Positions 4,011 to 16,791 of a DNA stretch of 39,450 nt are shown here, in pieces. The notes under the pieces are model-generated. The model made no database searches, had not been told where the DNA came from, and was given only the letters and a program-made list of their open reading frames with translations. Position 1 is the stretch's first letter; every line of letters begins with the position of its first letter. Source of the DNA: Candidatus Lloydbacteria bacterium CG22_combo_CG10-13_8_21_14_all_47_15 (GTDB lineage Bacteria > Patescibacteriota > Minisyncoccia > Phycocordibacterales > 21-14-all-47-15); the NCBI GenBank assembly GCA_002771515.1, contig PCTL01000026.1, positions 1-39,450 on the forward strand, given 5' to 3'. The position numbers and the translations under genes are program-made.

Positions 4011-7000
4011 AGAGTTGTGGGATTTAAAATTATCTCTCCGTTCATTTCTATTGTCCCTGCCATGACGCGGTGGTGTTTGCTTTGGCTGTATGCGTGCCGG
4101 TGTCACCGATGTCAACGGAGGTGTCGGTGACAATGAAGCCGACTTTTGCGGCAACGGTATGTCTTTTTTCTCGTCAATATCTTTTTTTGACGGCAATAAA
4201 ATAATTCTGCTCGCTTTGTCGGCAGAAGAGATATCGGCATCTTTCTGTCCGTTTGTCTTATTTTCTCCGCCATGTGCCGTCACGCCGTTAGACAAAGTAT
4301 CGGATTCAGCTTCCGGATGCCGTGTGCGAAGCATGAGATAAAGTATGAAAATCAAAACGGCAATAGGAATGAGGGGCGTCAATTGTGAAGGGTCTTTTGC
4401 AACCGCTATTGCCGCAAGAAGCGATCGTGTGTCAGTGGTTGTTCCAGATTCTTCCGGAAGCGTTTCTCCTGCAACCCCAAACACGCCCGCCAATTCTGGC
4501 ACGCGAGCGGCACCGAGCGCGTCATCCGTCCCGACAGCAATTCCTGTATCCAATACAGACGGAAATTCTTCCCCATTTGCCGCAGCAAATGTTTCGCTTG
4601 GTGCGCCTACACCCACCGCGCCGGTGTCAATCGTACCAGCCGGAGCCGAGAGTATCAGAGTCCGAAATTCATCAATTTCCGCAAGTTGAGCGCCATTTAA
4701 AGGAAATTCTCGTTCACAATAGATTTCATTTACCTTCTTTCTGGTCGTGTAGTACACATAGCCGGTACTTGAAGGCAACGCCCATGTATCAAGCACATCC
4801 GAGCGATATCGCTCCTGAAATTCCGACACAGCGTCAAAGCTTGCCTGATCGTACACGCCGGTTACAGGTATGTCACTGAATCCTTCAAAATCACGGAGAA
4901 ATGCCTGAAGTTTCAATACTTCAGCAGGGTTATTATTCTCTCCCAACTTGATGTATTCCAAGAGATACTCCTGACAAACTTGAGGTGCGGGAGGCATAAT
5001 CGGCGGGGTTGTAGTCCCTTCAAGCATAATATTCAGCTCAATGCCACCCGCCTGTTCGTTTGTTCTATTGGACATTGGTCGGAAATAATAAAGGACATTG
5101 TCTTTTAGACCCGTGATGGTCATACTGTGGTCAAATTCATATATATTGTTTTCTGTTGTTAAAAGAGCATATTCGCCAAAAGGCAATGTTGCCGTCGCGT
5201 GACTGGTAACATCATAAAGAACCAAACTTGTGGCCTGCAGATTGGTATCCCATGTCACCTGAACGGTGCCGGAACCTATCTGCACAACCTTTTCATTCGT
5301 AATATTCAGGTGAATTGGATTACCTCCACCTCCACCACCGCCACCACAATTCGTGGTACACACGGGCGGCGGTGTGGGCGGAGGTGTGGGCGGAGGAGTT
5401 GGTGTCACCACATTCACCGTCCGCGTCACCTCATCGGCAGAAAGCCCTTCGGAATCTTCCACATTGTATGTGATTGTGTAAGTACCCGATGTATTCGCAT
5501 CAACGCCGCTTCCTCCCACCACAATATCCGCCGTAATATCGCCGTCTTCAGGGTCGTCCGCAGTCGCGCCTGGGTCGGTGAAACTATCACCCTTCGTAAT
5601 CTCCATCGGGTTCGCTCCCATAAGCGTAATGGCTGGCTTTACATTTTCATCGTCATCATCCGGGTCGTACGAATCAGGATTATCCGGGTCGCCATCGGTA
5701 TGGCAGCCGGAATCGTCAATATCCGCCAATCCATCACCGTCGTTGTCTATCGTATCTGAACATTCAGTCGTTTCAACCACATTCACCGTTCGCGTCACTT
5801 CATCGGCAGAAAGCCCTTCGGAATCTTCCACATTGTATGTGATTGTGTAAGAACCGAGTGGCGTCGTGCTGGCGACAACATCTCCACCCACCACAATATC
5901 CGCCGTGATATCGCCGTCTTCAGGGTCGTCTGCGGTCGCGCCTGTATCCGTATACTCATTGCCGAGAATCACCGTGGCAGGATTATTTCCGACCAAAGTT
6001 ATCGTTGGCTTGGTGTTCTCATCGTCGTCGTCTTCCGAATCACAGCCCAAGTCATCTGGATAGTCAATTAGCCCATCCTCATCGTTATCAATGCCATCTG
6101 AACACTCCGGTGGCTCTGCGGGCTCCGGTGACACAACCACGATTCTTGTTTTTTCATCAGCCGGCAATCCTTCGGAGTCTGCCACATTGTAAGAAACGGT
6201 TGAAGCACCGATAATTGATGTATCAATAGTATCTCCACCCACCACAATATCCGCCGTAATATCGCCGTCTTCAGGGTCGTCCGCAGTCGCGCCTGGGTCG
6301 GTGAAAACACTGTTCTGGAAAATAATCAAAGGATTATCACCCAAAAGAGTAATTTCAGGTTTTGTATTTTCATCGTCGTCGTCTTCCGAATCACAGCCCA
6401 AGTCATCTGGATAGTCGGCAAAACCGTCCCCATCATTATCAATCGTATCTGAACACTGTGGCACCGGTGGTTCTTCCAGAATCAGATCAAATGCGGCACA
6501 GACAGCGGTAACGCTATTGGCAGTATCCTGATCAACCGCATACCATGTATGCACCGCTTTCACGGCATTTGCGGCGGTTGAAAGTAAAAGAGATTCATCA
6601 ACAACTTCAGTAACCGTGGCACTGGCAACATAATCTGCCAAATCACTGACAGAGTTTGAGTCAATAATAATAGTTGGTCCATTCATAAATCGCACAAACC
6701 AATTTTCAGACGGTTGCTCTATATTAATTCTATTCTCATAACCATCAAAAGAAAAAAGAGAAACCTGATATTCTCCCGCCTGCAGATTTACGCTAACCAA
6801 AGGAGTCTCGTGTGGCCCATTTTCTCCTATGTCAAGAAGTTTTTGACTAGTGTCAAAATTAACAATTGTCCTACCACTCTGCGGTTCAAACACACATTCA
6901 GGAATCTCGTTTGGAGCAGACGCATACACCAAATGCGCGGTAGGAAGCGTAAAAATCGCCGTGAGCAATATCACAGCAAAAACGCCAAAAAATAAAATAT

Positions 7001-7426: not shown

Positions 7427-9694
7427 ATGGATGAAAAATTTCTGAAACCATACGATCCGAAAAAATCTGAAGACACTGTCTACAAACGCTGGGAAGAGAG
7501 TGGCTTTTTTAAACCAGAAAAAACCGATTCTCCTGATGGCGAGCGTTTCTCAATAGTCCTTCCCCCTCCGAATGTGACCGGTACACTCCACATGGGACAC
7601 GCTGCTATGCTTGCGATAGAAGATATCGCGGTCCGTTTTGAAAGAATGAGCGGCAAACAAACGCTCTGGCTTCCGGGCACCGACCATGCGGCAATCGCTA
7701 CGCAATCAAAAGTAGAAGAGATTATGTATAAAAAAGAAAAAAAGACGCGACACGACATCGGTCGCGAAGAATTTTTGCGGCGCGTTGATGCATACGCAAA
7801 AGAAAGCCATGACACGATTGTCAACCAGATTAAAAAAATGGGCGCATCGGTAGACTGGTCGCGAGAAGCATTTACCTTGGATGAGGCGCGGCATCGCGCG
7901 GTCAACACCGCGTTCAAAAAAATGTACGACGACGGACTCATATATCGTGGCGAGGGTATGGTTAATTGGGACCCGAAACTCCAGACAACAGTTTCGGACG
8001 ATGAAATTGAATGGGATGAAGAAACTGTTCCCTTCTACTATCTCAAGTACGGTCCATTTATTATCGGCACATCCCGTCCTGAAACAAAATTCGGCGATAA
8101 ATATGTCGTGATGCATCCCGATGACACGCGATACAGCGAGTACACAGACGGCCAGACGATAAAGCTTGAGTGGATTAATGGTCCAATAAGCGCGACCATT
8201 ATCAAAGATACTGCGATTGACATGGAATTCGGTACTGGTGTGATGACAATTACACCATGGCACGACCGCACGGACTTTGAGATTGCCGAGAGGCACGATC
8301 TGGACAAAGAACAGGTTATCAACGAGCGAGGCATCCTCCTCCCTATTGCTGGCGAATTTGCCGGCGAACACATCAAAAAAGCGCGGGCGCGCATCGTAGA
8401 AAAATTGAGAGCAAAAGGACTCGTTGACAAAGTAGACGAAAAATATGTGCACAGTATCGCTATAAACAGCCGAGGCGGCGGCATCATTGAGCCGCAAATT
8501 AAAGAGCAATGGTTTGTCGCGGTAAACAAAGAATTTCCTATCGCATATTCGGCTATGGATGGCATTGCGTCCGGGGAAACCGTGACTCTCAAAAAACTAA
8601 TGCGTCACGCTGTAGAGAGCGGACAGATAAAAATAATTCCGGATAGGTTTGAAAAAATCTATTACCATTGGATAGATAACCTGCGCGACTGGAATATCAG
8701 TCGGCAAATCTGGTACGGTCATCGGATTCCGGTATGGTACCACGACCCAATCTGCATACCGCTCGCAGACAGAGAAGATGATATTTCAAAATGTATTCCG
8801 ATTGTAGTGTCCGGCACTAAACCGGAATGTAAATTTTGTGCAGCTGCGTATACGCAAGATCCTGACACGCTTGATACATGGTTTTCATCCGGTCTCTGGA
8901 CATTCTCAACACTTGGCTGGCCTGATGAAACAGCAGACCTGAAGCGATTCCACCCAACCGACCTCCTAGAAACCGGCTATGACATACTCTTCTTCTGGGT
9001 CGCACGGATGATTTTAATGACAACTTATCTTTTGGGAGATGTGCCATTCCGTACGGTATACTTGCACGGCCTTGTTCGCGACGAAAAAGGAAAAAAAATG
9101 AGTAAATCGCTCGGCAACACCATAGACCCGCTAGAGATGATTGAAAAATACGGCGCAGATGCCACGCGTCTTTCTCTCGTTGTCGGCGCGCCTCCCGGAA
9201 ATGACATTTCACTCTCTGAAGGCAAAGTGCGCGGATACAAGCATTTTGCGAATAAAATCTGGAATATCGCACGGTTTGTACTTTCAAACATTCCGGCAGA
9301 AGCCAATTCAGAGAAACCTGCACTTCGGAAAGAGGATAATGCGTGGATTGAAAGTCTGGTACTGGTGTCGGAAGATATCTCAAAACATATTGCCGCATAC
9401 CGTTTTGACCTTGCGTCCGACATTCTCTATCACTGGGTGTGGCACGAATTCGCTGATAAATATATTGAAGAAGTAAAACCGGCGCTAAAAGACGGTACAG
9501 ACGAAGAAAAAGCATCCGTCCAATGGACGCTATATGCGGTCCTTACCGACTGTCTGAAGCTCCTTCATCCGTTTATGCCGTTTGTCACAGAAGAGATCTG
9601 GGCAGGACTTCCGCGTAAAGATGCGGAACTCTTGATGATCGCGCCATGGCCAACTGTACCCAGTGACAAAATACAGGAAATGCTTCATACTTAA
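7427..9694 (+). CDS. valS: valyl-tRNA synthetase
   Basis: Class I synthetase that charges tRNA-Val; a cognate tRNA-Val(GAC) lies in this window. The Rossmann signature HMGH is at 55-58 (PPPNVTGTLHMGH) and KMSKS at about 557-561 (EKGKKMSKSLGN). WYGHRIPVWY and the WFSSGLWTFSTLGWP block match ValS. The region between (about 180-330) is the editing domain, more compact than usual. At 755 residues it is shorter than the typical 880-950, and it ends soon after the anticodon-binding domain (FMPFVTEEIW), so the C-terminal tRNA-binding coiled coil is missing. Downstream prsW begins 5 nt after the stop. Confidence 0.95.
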   Translation: MDEKFLKPYDPKKSEDTVYKRWEESGFFKPEKTDSPDGERFSIVLPPPNVTGTLHMGHAAMLAIEDIAVRFERMSGKQTLWLPGTDHAAIATQSKVEEIMYKKEKKTRHDIGREEFLRRVDAYAKESHDTIVNQIKKMGASVDWSREAFTLDEARHRAVNTAFKKMYDDGLIYRGEGMVNWDPKLQTTVSDDEIEWDEETVPFYYLKYGPFIIGTSRPETKFGDKYVVMHPDDTRYSEYTDGQTIKLEWINGPISATIIKDTAIDMEFGTGVMTITPWHDRTDFEIAERHDLDKEQVINERGILLPIAGEFAGEHIKKARARIVEKLRAKGLVDKVDEKYVHSIAINSRGGGIIEPQIKEQWFVAVNKEFPIAYSAMDGIASGETVTLKKLMRHAVESGQIKIIPDRFEKIYYHWIDNLRDWNISRQIWYGHRIPVWYHDPICIPLADREDDISKCIPIVVSGTKPECKFCAAAYTQDPDTLDTWFSSGLWTFSTLGWPDETADLKRFHPTDLLETGYDILFFWVARMILMTTYLLGDVPFRTVYLHGLVRDEKGKKMSKSLGNTIDPLEMIEKYGADATRLSLVVGAPPGNDISLSEGKVRGYKHFANKIWNIARFVLSNIPAEANSEKPALRKEDNAWIESLVLVSEDISKHIAAYRFDLASDILYHWVWHEFADKYIEEVKPALKDGTDEEKASVQWTLYAVLTDCLKLLHPFMPFVTEEIWAGLPRKDAELLMIAPWPTVPSDKIQEMLHT

Positions 9695-9699
9695 AGAAA

Positions 9700-10386
9700 G
9701 TGCCAAGCCCCGACACACTTTTTTATGCGTTGATTGGCGGCGTTCTCCCCGCCGTGCTATGGCTTTGGTTTTGGCTTAAAGAAGACGGAAAGCATCCGGA
9801 GCCGCGCTCACTCATCATAAAAATGTTTATCGCCGGTATGGTGGCGGTTGTTCTTGTATTCCCGATTGAAAAATGGGCATACAATATAATTGAGAGTAGC
9901 TTTGCAATCATTTTTGCTTGGGCGATTATTGAAGAGGTGATGAAGTTCGCCGCCGCATATACCGCCGGACTCTCCACCAGATTTTTTGACGAGCCGATAG
10001 ATGCGGTCATCTACTTTATTACAGTTGCGCTTGGCTTTGCAGCACTTGAGAATACGCTCTTTATCATAAAACCTCTATTGGATGGCGAAGCGCTTCTGGG
10101 GGCACTCACGGGAAATCTCCGCTTCGTTGGCGCAACACTCCTTCATGTCGCCGCATCCGGAAGTATCGGCGCCGCGCTTGCATTTTCTTTTTATAAAAGC
10201 CGCGCGATACAGATAATTTCCATGGTGGTGGGTCTCGGAGCCGCTATCATATTGCATACTGTCTTTAACTTTTTTATAATTCACTATGAAGGGACTAATA
10301 CATTCTACATCCTCGGAGCACTTTGGTTTGTCGTGATACTCCTTATTCTCATGCTGGAGAGAATTAAACGATTACAAGCTAAATAA
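9700..10386 (+). CDS. PrsW-family intramembrane protease-like protein
   Basis: 228 residues with about seven or eight hydrophobic helices. The PrsW/CPBP-type motifs are all present: EEVMK (78-82), GFAALEN (112-118), LLH (147-149) and HTVFN (186-190), which supply the Glu/His residues proposed for metal binding in this family. PrsW cleaves the anti-sigma factor RsiW in Bacillus; the substrate here is unknown, so only the family is assigned. The start is GTG at 9700, five bases after the valS stop, which suggests translational coupling. Confidence 0.8.
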   Translation: MPSPDTLFYALIGGVLPAVLWLWFWLKEDGKHPEPRSLIIKMFIAGMVAVVLVFPIEKWAYNIIESSFAIIFAWAIIEEVMKFAAAYTAGLSTRFFDEPIDAVIYFITVALGFAALENTLFIIKPLLDGEALLGALTGNLRFVGATLLHVAASGSIGAALAFSFYKSRAIQIISMVVGLGAAIILHTVFNFFIIHYEGTNTFYILGALWFVVILLILMLERIKRLQAK

Positions 10387-12587: not shown

Positions 12588-12662
12588 GCCCCTGTAGCTC
12601 AATGGATAGAGCAGATCCGTCCTAAGGATAAGATGCGGGTTCGATTCCTGCCGGGGGCACCA
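12588..12662 (+). tRNA. tRNA-Arg(CCT)
   Basis: Cloverleaf with acceptor GCCCCTG/CGGGGGC, D-arm GCTC/GAGC, anticodon stem GATCC/GGATA (first pair mismatched) with loop GTCCTAA (anticodon CCT, reads AGG), T-arm GCGGG/CCTGC with loop TTCGATT, discriminator A and encoded CCA. The last A is also the first base of the next ATG. Confidence 0.9.
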
Positions 12663-13051
12663 TGACCGTAAAAGAGGTTCGCGGTTCCGGTATCAACGAT
12701 ACCTATGAAGTTGAGCTTGTGGTGAATGACTTTAATATTGCATCTGATTTTTTTGAAGCATGTAATATCCCAGTAAAGGCATTCCAAGAGAACATGCGCG
12801 AAGTGCGGGAGCGTGACGAAGTTGAGGTAACAATAGACACATGGCCAGGTCTTAATCCATTCGTTGAAGTAGAGGCGGAAACGGAAGAAGTGGTGCGAAA
12901 AATATCGGAAGAGCTTGGTTTCAATTTCAATGAAGCTGTTTTCGGAAGTATTGATATTGTATATGAGAAAGAGCTTGGTGTTCCTGCTGAAACTATCATC
13001 AAACTTCCAGAGATCACGTTTGCAAACCCACCAAAGAAAAACGCCGCGTAA
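12662..13051 (+). CDS. 5'-truncated CYTH-domain protein (probable remnant)
   Basis: 129 residues that match only the C-terminal two-thirds of a class IV adenylate cyclase/thiamine-triphosphatase-like CYTH domain: the YEVELVVNDF strand, a KAFQENMREV block, and VEVTIDTWPGLNPFVEVEAE followed by EELGFNFNEAVFGSIDIVYEK. The N-terminal ExExK strand, which binds the metal and triphosphate in this fold, is missing, so the product should be inactive as an enzyme. The ATG shares its A with the end of tRNA-Arg and the frame is closed by a stop inside the tRNA, so the missing half is not upstream in this frame. Truncation at the tRNA 3' end suggests a past integration or deletion. Whether it is expressed is unknown. 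Confidence 0.65.
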   Translation: MTVKEVRGSGINDTYEVELVVNDFNIASDFFEACNIPVKAFQENMREVRERDEVEVTIDTWPGLNPFVEVEAETEEVVRKISEELGFNFNEAVFGSIDIVYEKELGVPAETIIKLPEITFANPPKKNAA

Positions 13052-13096: not shown

Positions 13097-13810
13097 TCAC
13101 TTTGTACAGTAAGCGAGCAATCTTGAAAACAACTCGGTACGATCAATCGTGCCACCAGACAAATTGTGTGCCGCACCTTTTATTTCGCACACGACACGTT
13201 CTCGTGCTGATATCGCACTGGCGATAATTTTATCTTGAGAATCTTTTGGTACCACCGTATCATTCGTGCCTCTAATAAATACAAATGTTCCTGCATAGGA
13301 TTGTAACGAGGATAGAAATGACTCTTCGCTCGACATGGTTGAAAGCAGCGGTTTAGTGGTTGTCAGACTTTTACCACACCCACTTCCTATCATGATTATT
13401 GATTCAGCTTTCTGAAAAAGTGTTGGCAATGCAAGAAGAAGTGTCCCCCCAAATGAATTGCCAACAATAATAATCCTGTGCTCTTTAGATACGAGCTTAT
13501 CCTGTACACACATATCAAAACCTTTCTTTACATCTTCACATTCTTGTTGGAATGTTTTACCCGCAAATGCTTCCGGGGTGTCGGATGGAAAAACTTCATT
13601 CAATCGAGCAGTGTTGATACATATAAAATTATACGAACTCTTACACGCGGAGATCAGTGACATATCCCACGAATCGGGTGTATTAGGATTATGTAGTCCA
13701 TAGATACCTTTGAGAAGTACCACGGTGTTGTTGGTCGGTTTTAATGATCCATACCAAAAAACTTCTATTGGCAACGAATAAAAAGATGATGTTAGAGAAA
13801 GCTTCTTCAT
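13097..13810 (-). CDS. alpha/beta hydrolase
   Basis: 237 residues with the alpha/beta-hydrolase layout. The nucleophile elbow is GNSFGG (Ser119), the acid probably Asp184 in FIRGTNDTVVP, and the base His215 in KGAAHNLSG. The spacing is right for a functional triad. There is no signal peptide, so it is cytoplasmic. Substrate cannot be inferred; esterase, peptidase or thioesterase-like activity is possible. It lies downstream of the IucA/IucC-like gene on the same strand, but a terminator separates them and it has its own extended -10, so co-regulation is not implied. Confidence 0.8.
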   Translation of the reverse strand: MKKLSLTSSFYSLPIEVFWYGSLKPTNNTVVLLKGIYGLHNPNTPDSWDMSLISACKSSYNFICINTARLNEVFPSDTPEAFAGKTFQQECEDVKKGFDMCVQDKLVSKEHRIIIVGNSFGGTLLLALPTLFQKAESIIMIGSGCGKSLTTTKPLLSTMSSEESFLSSLQSYAGTFVFIRGTNDTVVPKDSQDKIIASAISARERVVCEIKGAAHNLSGGTIDRTELFSRLLAYCTK

Positions 13811-13817
13811 ACATTAT

Positions 13818-13826
13818 AGTATAGCA
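13818..13826 (-). promoter_or_regulatory. extended -10 of the hydrolase gene
   Basis: On the minus strand TGc-TATACT ends 7 nt before the ATG at 13810, predicting a leaderless transcript. An overlapping TATAAT lies only 2 nt from the ATG. Confidence 0.5.
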
Positions 13827-13867
13827 AAAAAACCCCCGACCGCCTCGAACTCCGAGACAATCAGGGG
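13826..13867 (-). terminator. terminator of the IucA/IucC-like operon
   Basis: On the minus strand, a CCCCTGA...TCTCG arm pairs with CGAG...TCGGGGG and is followed by seven T. Confidence 0.8.
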
Positions 13868-13873
13868 ATATAT

Positions 13874-15082
13874 TCAACGAAACTCTGGCTTTTCACCAGT
13901 GTCAGCAAAAGTGACCTCATTTCCGGTCTGATCGCGAGCAGAGGTCGCGAAACGATACGTCGTCGCTGGGAACCGAGCAGACTCGTATCCAGGTATACAT
14001 CGGTGATATGAACGTATCGCCTTTGCGACAATGTCGTACTCCACGCCAAAATGTAGGCAGAATACTTTTATTAGTCTCGATATCAGATACTTCCCGATCA
14101 TTCCATCAAACACATGACTGTACTGAGATTCGAGAGTAGTTCCCGACTCGCTTCCTGCGACATGCTTGGTGAAGATCGGTAGACCGAGCCCAATGCGGAT
14201 TGTGGAATCGCTGTAGGTTCCCTGAAAGTCTCTATGGACTACTCGCCTGATACGAAACCGCTCATCTATTTCAGCGAGTGCGTTTTGTCCGTGTAATTCA
14301 GGAAGCAGACCACGCTTTGATACGAGCAATACCCATGCCTCAAGCAATGGACCGACGATTTCACTCACGAAATATCGGATTTTGTCGATTTTTGCGTGAT
14401 GTTCAATCATCTGAACCAACAAAGGTCTGTCCTCAGAATGGAACGGGTCCTGTGCATAGAGTGCATGATACGGAAGCAATATCCTCCGCTCATGCACGAT
14501 AGGATACGGAAGCATCTCCCTGAATACAACACCCGATCCCTCGTGCGCGCCACCACGCACGACAATACCGAGCGATTCAGGTAAGAACGCGTATCTCACC
14601 ACATCGGGCAATGTGGCAACCTGTTGCCGAAGATCACCGCAGATTGCCACACTGTGCTCGACAGAACTCCGCTGTAGCCGACGAACAAAGCGAAAATGCT
14701 TCTTATTAAGATCTGTTTTGATGCAGATCCGTGGCTCTGTTTCTGTTAAGAGTGTCCGTGTTGAACTTGTAGGCTGTGCCCGAACTGTGCCCGCTTCTGT
14801 AAATTCATCCCGTATAACATCCGGATGCCAAAAGAATTTGTATCCATTGGCGGTTTTTACAAAAGAAAGCAATTCAGACGATGGTGACGACTGCAGGATG
14901 ATGCATCGCTCTGTGGGCAAGACGCAATACGGCAGGTCAATGTGAGAAATACTACCTTGCGGATCGTATTTCACATCAACTTCCGAATAGTCCTCGAAAC
15001 GACCCTTTGAGTCGTTAAGAAAACGCTCACCGTAGATAGTTGTAACAAGCGGGTCTCGAAACAATTCATTTGTTAACTTCAT
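13874..15082 (-). CDS. IucA/IucC-family (NIS synthetase-like) enzyme
   Basis: 402 residues. The family's catalytic landmarks appear in order: HPD at 86-88 (family HPWQ position), the ATP-binding SSTRT at 106-110 with PT just before it, a conserved Lys122, an Arg-rich strand (130-138), ELHGQN at 262-267 and HRDFQG at 283-288. IucA/IucC enzymes adenylate a carboxylate such as citrate and join it to an amine or alcohol in siderophore assembly. The substrate here is unknown. It is shorter than typical members (about 580 aa), lacking roughly the first 130 residues and a FhuF-like C-terminus. A strong SD (AAAGGAG, 15089-15095) precedes the ATG, which overlaps the upstream gene by 17 bp. No siderophore transporter or other biosynthetic gene is nearby. 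Confidence 0.7.
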   Translation of the reverse strand: MKLTNELFRDPLVTTIYGERFLNDSKGRFEDYSEVDVKYDPQGSISHIDLPYCVLPTERCIILQSSPSSELLSFVKTANGYKFFWHPDVIRDEFTEAGTVRAQPTSSTRTLLTETEPRICIKTDLNKKHFRFVRRLQRSSVEHSVAICGDLRQQVATLPDVVRYAFLPESLGIVVRGGAHEGSGVVFREMLPYPIVHERRILLPYHALYAQDPFHSEDRPLLVQMIEHHAKIDKIRYFVSEIVGPLLEAWVLLVSKRGLLPELHGQNALAEIDERFRIRRVVHRDFQGTYSDSTIRIGLGLPIFTKHVAGSESGTTLESQYSHVFDGMIGKYLISRLIKVFCLHFGVEYDIVAKAIRSYHRCIPGYESARFPATTYRFATSARDQTGNEVTFADTGEKPEFR

Positions 15083-15338
15083 CTCGTACTCCTTTCTTCG
15101 CCGTGTTCCTCTGAACGTGGCTTAGAGTGTTGCGGGTGATTTCGGCGTAACGATCGGGATAATCCCGACGCAAAACACCGAGCCAGCGAGCCGCTTTCGC
15201 GGTCTCGTCATTGTGAGTGGCGTCCATGACCATATCATAGGCCGCCGTTGGGCTACTGCTCTTGTCGACCAGAAGGACAATGTCCGGCTGATCGAGGATG
15301 AGCTTGCAGCGCATCATGACTTCTTCTGCTGTGCGCAT
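15066..15338 (-). CDS. hypothetical 90-aa partner of the IucA/IucC-like gene
   Basis: 90 residues from the ATG at 15338, chosen because AAAGGAGG lies 10 nt upstream (15349-15356). Its 3' end overlaps the synthetase start, so the two are co-translated. The protein is helical and soluble: MRTAEEVMMRCKLIL, then DIVLLVDKSSSPTAAYDMVMD, then WLGVLRRDYPDRYAEI. I looked for a carrier-protein DSL motif and did not find one. No family is recognised; a regulator or accessory subunit is possible. Confidence 0.65.
   Translation of the reverse strand: MRTAEEVMMRCKLILDQPDIVLLVDKSSSPTAAYDMVMDATHNDETAKAARWLGVLRRDYPDRYAEITRNTLSHVQRNTAKKGVRDEVNK
15089..15095 (-). promoter_or_regulatory. Shine-Dalgarno of the IucA/IucC-like gene
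   Basis: AAAGGAG on the minus strand, 6 nt before the ATG at 15082 and inside the upstream gene. It decides the start. Confidence 0.75.
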
Positions 15339-15348
15339 ACGTGCTGTT

Positions 15349-15356
15349 CCTCCTTT
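15349..15356 (-). promoter_or_regulatory. Shine-Dalgarno of the 90-aa partner gene
   Basis: AAAGGAGG on the minus strand, 10 nt before the ATG at 15338. It rules out the longer frame starting at 15380. Confidence 0.75.
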
Positions 15357-15720
15357 CAGGATCGGATTGTTAAAGAACATATTTCAAGACCGTCTTGAAG
15401 TCTCGAAAGATACCATAACATATAATTCAAAATTCGTCCATATTTCCGCGCCGCGCATTCCTCCCGCGCCCTCCTGCGCGGCGGATACCAAATCCCCGCA
15501 AAAAGGAGCCGAGGCAAAGCAAAATCCTTTTCCTCCCACAAAAATAGTTTTGCTTTGCCTCGTCCGAATTGTATTTCGCCCCGCCACACTGCCCAGAAAC
15601 TTCTATGGCAGAACCCCAAAAAGAAAAAATGTTCCTTGCATTTCTGATTTTCGCGCGCCCAATTTTTTCTGAAATGGAAAGGACATTTTTTCTTTTTGGG
15701 GTTGCCGAGTGAAGCTAGGC
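15357..15720. other. hairpin-rich non-coding region (candidate structured RNA)
   Basis: Three inverted repeats occur in a row: CGCCGCGC (15449-15456)/GCGCGGCG (15476-15483); GAGGCAAAGCAAAA (15511-15524)/TTTTGCTTTGCCTC (15548-15561); and a perfect 19-bp pair at 15614-15632/15683-15701 (CCCCAAAAAG... with ...CTTTTTGGGG). The third encloses a smaller CATTTC/GAAATG pair. Frames across this stretch are short, lack motifs and cross the repeats. Together with repeat copy 2 it fills the gap of about 540 bp between two - strand genes. Confidence 0.55.
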
Positions 15721-15830
15721 GGTGGAGGGGCTTTCGTCGAGCGTACGACTTAGTTTAAAGCCACCACGCGCGCGGAGCGCGCGACATTATTTGTTTTGGA
15801 AATAGGTTCTAACTTGGTACAATAAATACA
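15698..15830 (+). repeat. dispersed repeat, copy 2
   Basis: Same block order as positions 1-147 (GGGGTTGCCGAG, CGAGCGTACGA, AAGCCACCACGCGC, GC hairpin, AACTTGGTACAATAAATAC). It ends in TGg-TACAAT (15815-15823), an extended -10 with TTTGGA 17 bp upstream. No + strand gene follows, only a terminator, so this copy does not serve as an ordinary gene promoter. Confidence 0.6.
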
Positions 15831-16179: not shown

Positions 16180-16791
16180 TTAAAGCCCTTTGGGTATGTA
16201 GATTACTTGTCCTCCAGGTAGCACATCATTTTTGATAAGTACAAACAAAAGCGCGGCAACGATACTCAAGGCGCTAACCGTGATAAATAACGGGGTGAAT
16301 CCAAACACTTCGGCCACAAACCCGCCGATGATACCTGCGATTCCAGCTCCAATACCGATAGACGAACTGTCAAGACCCCATGTCATCGCTTCTTTCCCTT
16401 TATCAATGTGCCGCACAAATATCCCACCCCATGAAGGAATGGCCATAGCCATTGCAAATGCATGTACCGCCTGAAGCACATAAATATGCCACGGCAGAGA
16501 TACCACAAGAAAGCCGAGCGGCACCAGTCCTGCCAGAAATGTTCCAAAAATCAAAAAGTAATAATCATCCCTCTCGCCATGGTTCCGGTCAAGAAATTTT
16601 CCTATTGGAAATTGAACGATGGATTTCAAAATCCAATAAATGCCGATCGCGATTCCCACCACCTCGGCATTTCCACCCTGTATATTCTCAATCACAAAGA
16701 TAGCAAGAATGGGGCTGATCAATCCCCACGCGGACAAAAGAAAAAAATCTGAAAGAATCAATACTTTGACGACTTTATTTATGTGTATCAT
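16180..16791 (-). CDS. half-size MFS-type membrane protein
   Basis: 203 residues with about six hydrophobic helices. It resembles one half of a 12-helix major facilitator, with GKFLDRNHGERDD in the place of the MFS loop 2-3 motif (G-x-x-x-D-R). Full-length MFS proteins have about 400 residues. The stop is followed by unrelated sequence, so the second half is not hidden in another frame nearby. It may act as a homodimer or be a decayed transporter; the substrate is unknown. No SD is seen; a TATAAT (minus strand, 16808-16813) lies 16 nt upstream of the ATG. Confidence 0.7.
   Translation of the reverse strand: MIHINKVVKVLILSDFFLLSAWGLISPILAIFVIENIQGGNAEVVGIAIGIYWILKSIVQFPIGKFLDRNHGERDDYYFLIFGTFLAGLVPLGFLVVSLPWHIYVLQAVHAFAMAMAIPSWGGIFVRHIDKGKEAMTWGLDSSSIGIGAGIAGIIGGFVAEVFGFTPLFITVSALSIVAALLFVLIKNDVLPGGQVIYIPKGL

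Follow-up and report, generated by a model that had tools for sequence, protein, structure and literature searches.

Genes and signals at the locus

The window (the whole 39,450-nucleotide stretch of contig PCTL01000026.1 analysed here, from a Candidatus Lloydbacteria genome) carries on its reverse strand a gene for a 402-aa ligase of the IucA/IucC family, the NRPS-independent siderophore (NIS) synthetases, and directly downstream of it a gene for a serine alpha/beta-hydrolase (Table 1). A Shine-Dalgarno site comparable to those of the ligase and of the small ORF overlapping its start was found in just one other of the 25 window genes examined, in agreement with the original prediction that these sites are strong and unlike those of the core genes; the strong terminator predicted after the ligase was also found.

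Table 1. Features of the ligase-hydrolase unit and its immediate surroundings in the window.
Feature	Position	Strand	Evidence or remark
tRNA-Arg(CCT)	12588..12662	+	beside the unit; overlaps the CYTH-like fragment by one base (12662)
5'-truncated CYTH-domain-like ORF	12662..13051	+	tblastn, 43% to L014 2503-2865
Serine alpha/beta-hydrolase, 237 aa, predicted triad S119-D184-H215	13097..13810	-	adjacency, AF2 model, invariant triad
TATACT, -10-like element	13818..13823	-	7 nt before hydrolase ATG
Terminator hairpin followed by T7	13833..13867	-	between ligase and hydrolase
NIS-like (IucA/IucC-family) ligase, 402 aa	13874..15082	-	PF04183, AsbB/AcsD profile match, NIS alignment, dN/dS
90-aa ORF	15066..15338	-	17-nt overlap with ligase start; not conserved, role doubtful
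Shine-Dalgarno AAAGGAG of ligase	15089..15095	-	
Shine-Dalgarno AAAGGAGG of 90-aa ORF	15349..15356	-	

A strong hairpin occurs in all eight spacers in which the ligase precedes the hydrolase (z from -2.6 to -6.9), its sequence varying by locus. The TATACT element so close to the hydrolase start codon suggests that the hydrolase transcript is leaderless, and from the spacer hairpin, this leaderless-looking start and the ligase's own Shine-Dalgarno site we read the two genes as probably separate transcripts. Of the 25 window genes, 8 have a TANNNT element 5–8 nt ahead of the start codon, against a background of 5.9%; leaderless starts thus appear widespread in the window, and Shine-Dalgarno sites are few. 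Just upstream of the 90-aa ORF, a perfect palindrome, TTCAAGAC-G-GTCTTGAA (15382–15408), is a possible operator. An Rfam search near the ligase returned only tRNAs and RNase P and no riboswitch.

The original prediction treated the ligase and the 90-aa protein as a functional, co-translated unit, and the overlap together with the strong Shine-Dalgarno sites on both reading frames fits such coupling. However, searches of the other eight ligase loci, 97 related genomes, viral contigs and plasmids found no homologue of the 90-aa ORF, and most other ligases carry their own Shine-Dalgarno site without any such ORF. We consider this partnership very improbable.

A divergent member of the IucA/IucC family

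Profile and alignment evidence identifies the ligase as a real, divergent member of the IucA/IucC (NIS-type) family. The membership originally predicted is borne out by its match to PF04183 (32.8 bits, cut-off 25), a domain matched by all nine aligned family members, and the HP (H86-P87), SSTRT (106–110), ELHGQN (262–267) and HRD (283–285) motifs were all verified. The match covers only profile positions 124–238 of 239, and the ligase thus lacks the domain's N-terminal half. The C-terminal FhuF-like domain PF06276 scores below threshold (20.3 bits, cut-off 25.2) and is weak in eight of the nine members. Because a direct sequence search of the PDB with the single protein gave no match, a ligase-family profile was needed, and it matched the solved NIS enzymes AsbB (3to3, 1.8e-6) and AcsD (2w02).

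In a multiple alignment, AcsD residues S279, R281, K293, R305, E442, H444 and D464 correspond to S107, R109, K122, R134, E262, H264 and D285 of the ligase, all seven of which are unchanged across seven aligned CPR ligases; AcsD R501 has no clear counterpart. Adenylation by AcsD depends critically on R305, its general base is E442, and a role for H444 has likewise been described (PMC3323832). In the comparison with six NIS references, which come from rhizobia and Bacillus badius and include one cut off where the fetched sequence ends, everything from SxRT onward is kept, a picture clearer than that from hhalign with one rhizobial NIS sequence, which was weak. The SxRT loop, the lysine and arginine of the ATP/adenylate site, E-x-H-x-Q-N and RDF are thus common to the ligase and the known synthetases AcsD, AsbB, AlcC, IucC, SbnC and DesD.

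dN/dS of the window ligase against its L013 and L018 homologues is about 0.12–0.17, and spans 0.06–0.27 across ligase pairs, so that the part responsible for adenylation appears intact and subject to purifying selection. This bears on whether the protein could be a decaying, inactive remnant, as might be imagined from the in-frame stop in the L028 ligase (47% identity) and from L004 (G201), where only the C-terminal part is kept. The window copy is intact, has low dN/dS and retains every catalytic residue, which leaves decay a highly unlikely explanation.

The short form and its predicted structure

Known NIS synthetases are 580–650 aa long, in contrast to about 400 aa here. Relative to full-length NIS proteins the ligase lacks about 170–200 N-terminal residues, which upholds the shortening originally put at about 130. 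Homologues of exactly 402 aa occur in seven other CPR genomes (L013, L014, L015, L016, L017, L018 and L033; 60–81% identity), and we therefore take the short form, as judged from these sequences, to be a genuine family trait. In the alignment the N-terminal GHPxHPxxKxR motif is absent from all short members, whereas the reference NIS proteins have it in full or almost in full. In the NIS family generally, this motif belongs to the citrate side of the site. The HP of the ligase aligns with the later HPWQ motif of NIS proteins and not with GHPxHPxxKxR, and the spacing from HP to SxRT is 21 residues in the CPR ligase as compared with about 36 in NIS synthetases. The N-terminal 100 or so residues align poorly to full-length NIS. 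The AF2 model, built from a seven-sequence input, has a mean pLDDT of 42, with residues 1–200 below 50, and is too poor for the N-terminal region to be read. The best 19 PDB matches of this poor model in Foldseek are nevertheless all NIS synthetases.

A conserved hydrolase partner

The original prediction held that nothing else for a siderophore pathway lies near the ligase. No such pathway is indeed adjacent, in contrast to known NIS synthetases, but the broader reading that the ligase has no relevant neighbor fails because an adjacent hydrolase is conserved with it. The hydrolase adjoins the ligase in all nine subfamily loci (following it in eight and preceding it in L028, with two hydrolase copies in L016), and ligase and hydrolase distances are correlated (r = 0.93, Mantel p = 0.0001). 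This pairing identifies the hydrolase as a conserved partner of the ligase, and from the neighborhood we infer a joint function, against which counts the terminator between the genes in several loci.

The AF2 model of the hydrolase (pLDDT 88) has an alpha/beta-hydrolase fold (Foldseek E 1e-11). The closest solved folds are feruloyl/cinnamoyl esterases and monoglyceride lipases, which have a Ser-Asp-His triad like the one here, whose residues are invariant among the hydrolases compared. Identity to these enzymes is only 9–16%, and the hydrolase differs from them in being paired with a ligase gene. Pfam Esterase (PF00756), used as a test for a siderophore esterase of the Fes/IroE/BesA kind, was not among its Pfam matches.

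Mobility of the gene pair

Comparison of cassette and core divergence indicates that the ligase-hydrolase pair is mobile and was recently exchanged between distantly related CPR lineages. The cassettes of L013 and L018 are 92% identical in DNA (dS about 0.2), whereas RsmH, encoded on the same L018 contig as the cassette, shares only 40% protein identity with the RsmH homologue of the L013 genome (G390). LepA of the L018 genome is 48% identical to that of the window, as against 68% for a same-family genome in which the ligase was not found. These loci belong to metagenome-assembled genomes, with short contigs in the case of L013, L014 and L017.

Near-identical direct repeats flank the unit in L018 (57 nt), L016 (42 nt), L014 (65 nt) and L017 (41 nt); among 450 control pseudo-cassettes in ten loci, none had flanking repeats. 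The repeats are imperfect hairpins that differ from locus to locus, and that of L016 occurs in only two copies on its 117-kb contig. Together with the cassette-versus-core divergence, these repeats back the acquisition by transfer originally proposed. No flanking direct repeat was found around the window's own copy. The L018 and L016 units adjoin tRNA genes, and in L016 the 16-nt 3' end of the neighboring tRNA-Asn recurs on the far side of the unit. In the window, the CYTH-like fragment aligns to the part, from residue 64 onward, of an L014 protein that matches CYTH (PF01928) and is encoded by the intact third gene of the unit there. The direct abutment of tRNA-Arg(CCT) and this truncated ORF suggests recombination at the 3' end of the tRNA gene.

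Several further features were recorded around the units. L033 has a DDE transposase gene (8995–9714) about 400 nt upstream of the ligase and, farther out, a 234-nt direct repeat (99%) on both sides of it. Upstream of the unit in the window lie long palindromes (15510–15562 and 15612–15703) and a 92-nt direct repeat (15694–15784, 74%) of the window's first 91 bases (2–91), which form the contig end; a search of the opening 3 kb of 20 contigs detected no other copy. Also upstream (16180–16791) is a gene for an MFS protein of 203 aa, roughly half as long as usual; the Methylocystis ligase described below adjoins an MFS gene as well. Elsewhere in the window, a 1034-aa surface protein with Ig-like domains contains internal tandem repeats (5407–6457, about 70–75%).

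Relatives and distribution

The ligase was detected in about 1–2% of the sampled genomes: 3 of 380 across the phylum, 7 of 397 within the order and 5 of 286 within the class. A more distant relative in L027 has 396 aa (29% identity), and a search of viral contigs and phages for relatives found none. PADLOC and PHROGs searches yielded nothing useful.

Outside CPR, Methylocystis plasmids encode short IucA/IucC proteins of 407–408 aa with the same domain boundaries and about 30% identity, which differ from the CPR ligase in having an MFS transporter next to them, no hydrolase, and Gln for Glu at the AcsD E442 position. These genes lie in a conserved ChrB-ChrA-DUF1259-ligase-MFS run adjoining heavy-metal efflux genes (L019–L021; in L021 the ligase is interrupted by an IS6 element). 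This neighborhood (chromate resistance, MFS) is the reason to entertain a detoxification or metal-handling role, in which the ligase would conjugate, and the hydrolase cleave, a toxic organic or metal-binding compound from neighboring organisms. The mobility and patchy occurrence of the unit would also suit a resistance cassette. On the other hand, no metal-resistance genes were recognized beside the CPR units and the Methylocystis homologue has no hydrolase, so we regard this role as unlikely, if more credible than the other alternatives considered here.

In another locus (L011 8821–11695, genome G041), the ORF after a radical SAM gene combines a short NIS-like domain with a long C-terminal extension, possibly a second non-siderophore use of the NIS ligase fold. 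Our literature searches turned up neither a description of short CPR NIS proteins nor one of NIS synthetases associated with radical SAM, and no paper combining any two of IucA/IucC, alpha/beta hydrolase and DUF1259.

Discussion

The source bacterium is tiny and probably host-dependent, and neither citrate synthase (PF00285) nor the FecCD permease of siderophore transport (PF01032) was found in its genome, which is about 93% complete. Given these two absences and the missing citrate-side motif, a home-made citrate siderophore appears unlikely; the lack of the motif and of citrate synthase also led us to judge a substrate other than citrate likely, as originally suggested. The ligase could still be a true citrate-type NIS siderophore synthetase if citrate came from the host or the surroundings, with the hydrolase freeing iron or recycling the product in the manner of Fes. 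Siderophore pathways often include esterases, and the NIS catalytic residues are kept. However, this proposal is at odds with the absence of GHPxHPxxKxR from every short member, with a genome lacking citrate synthase and FecCD, with the absence of any amine-modifying enzyme seen beside the ligase gene and with a hydrolase that does not match Pfam Esterase, and we consider it improbable.

The model that we favor, and hold to be somewhat more probable than not, is a mobile two-gene CPR unit in which a compact carboxylate-activating NIS-type ligase and a serine alpha/beta-hydrolase share one pool of esters or amides. The ligase would adenylate a carboxylate with ATP and then acylate an amine or alcohol, E262 serving as the general base in the way that E442 does in AcsD. 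Its acid would probably not be self-made citrate, since the citrate-side N-terminal motif and a citrate synthase gene are both missing. The hydrolase, acting on the same esters or amides, could supply the acid, trim the product or remove it. More tentatively, the unit may represent an undescribed class of very small mobile cassette with hairpin-bearing direct repeats of 40–65 nt, often beside tRNA genes, that crosses distant CPR lineages carrying a non-siderophore NIS-type ligase and a hydrolase that modify a host or neighbor metabolite.

NIS enzymes are relied on as markers specific to siderophore synthesis, and a recent study reported that CPR lack them (PMC12919436). The CPR ligase loci are exceptions to this absence by family, perhaps not by function. 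The presence of a compact, active-site-complete NIS form in about 1–2% of sampled CPR genomes calls for caution, in that IucA/IucC matches should not be read as siderophores. The compact ligase would offer a minimal scaffold for studying NIS ligase chemistry, and the ligase-hydrolase unit shows that distant CPR lineages have recently exchanged an accessory pair of genes.
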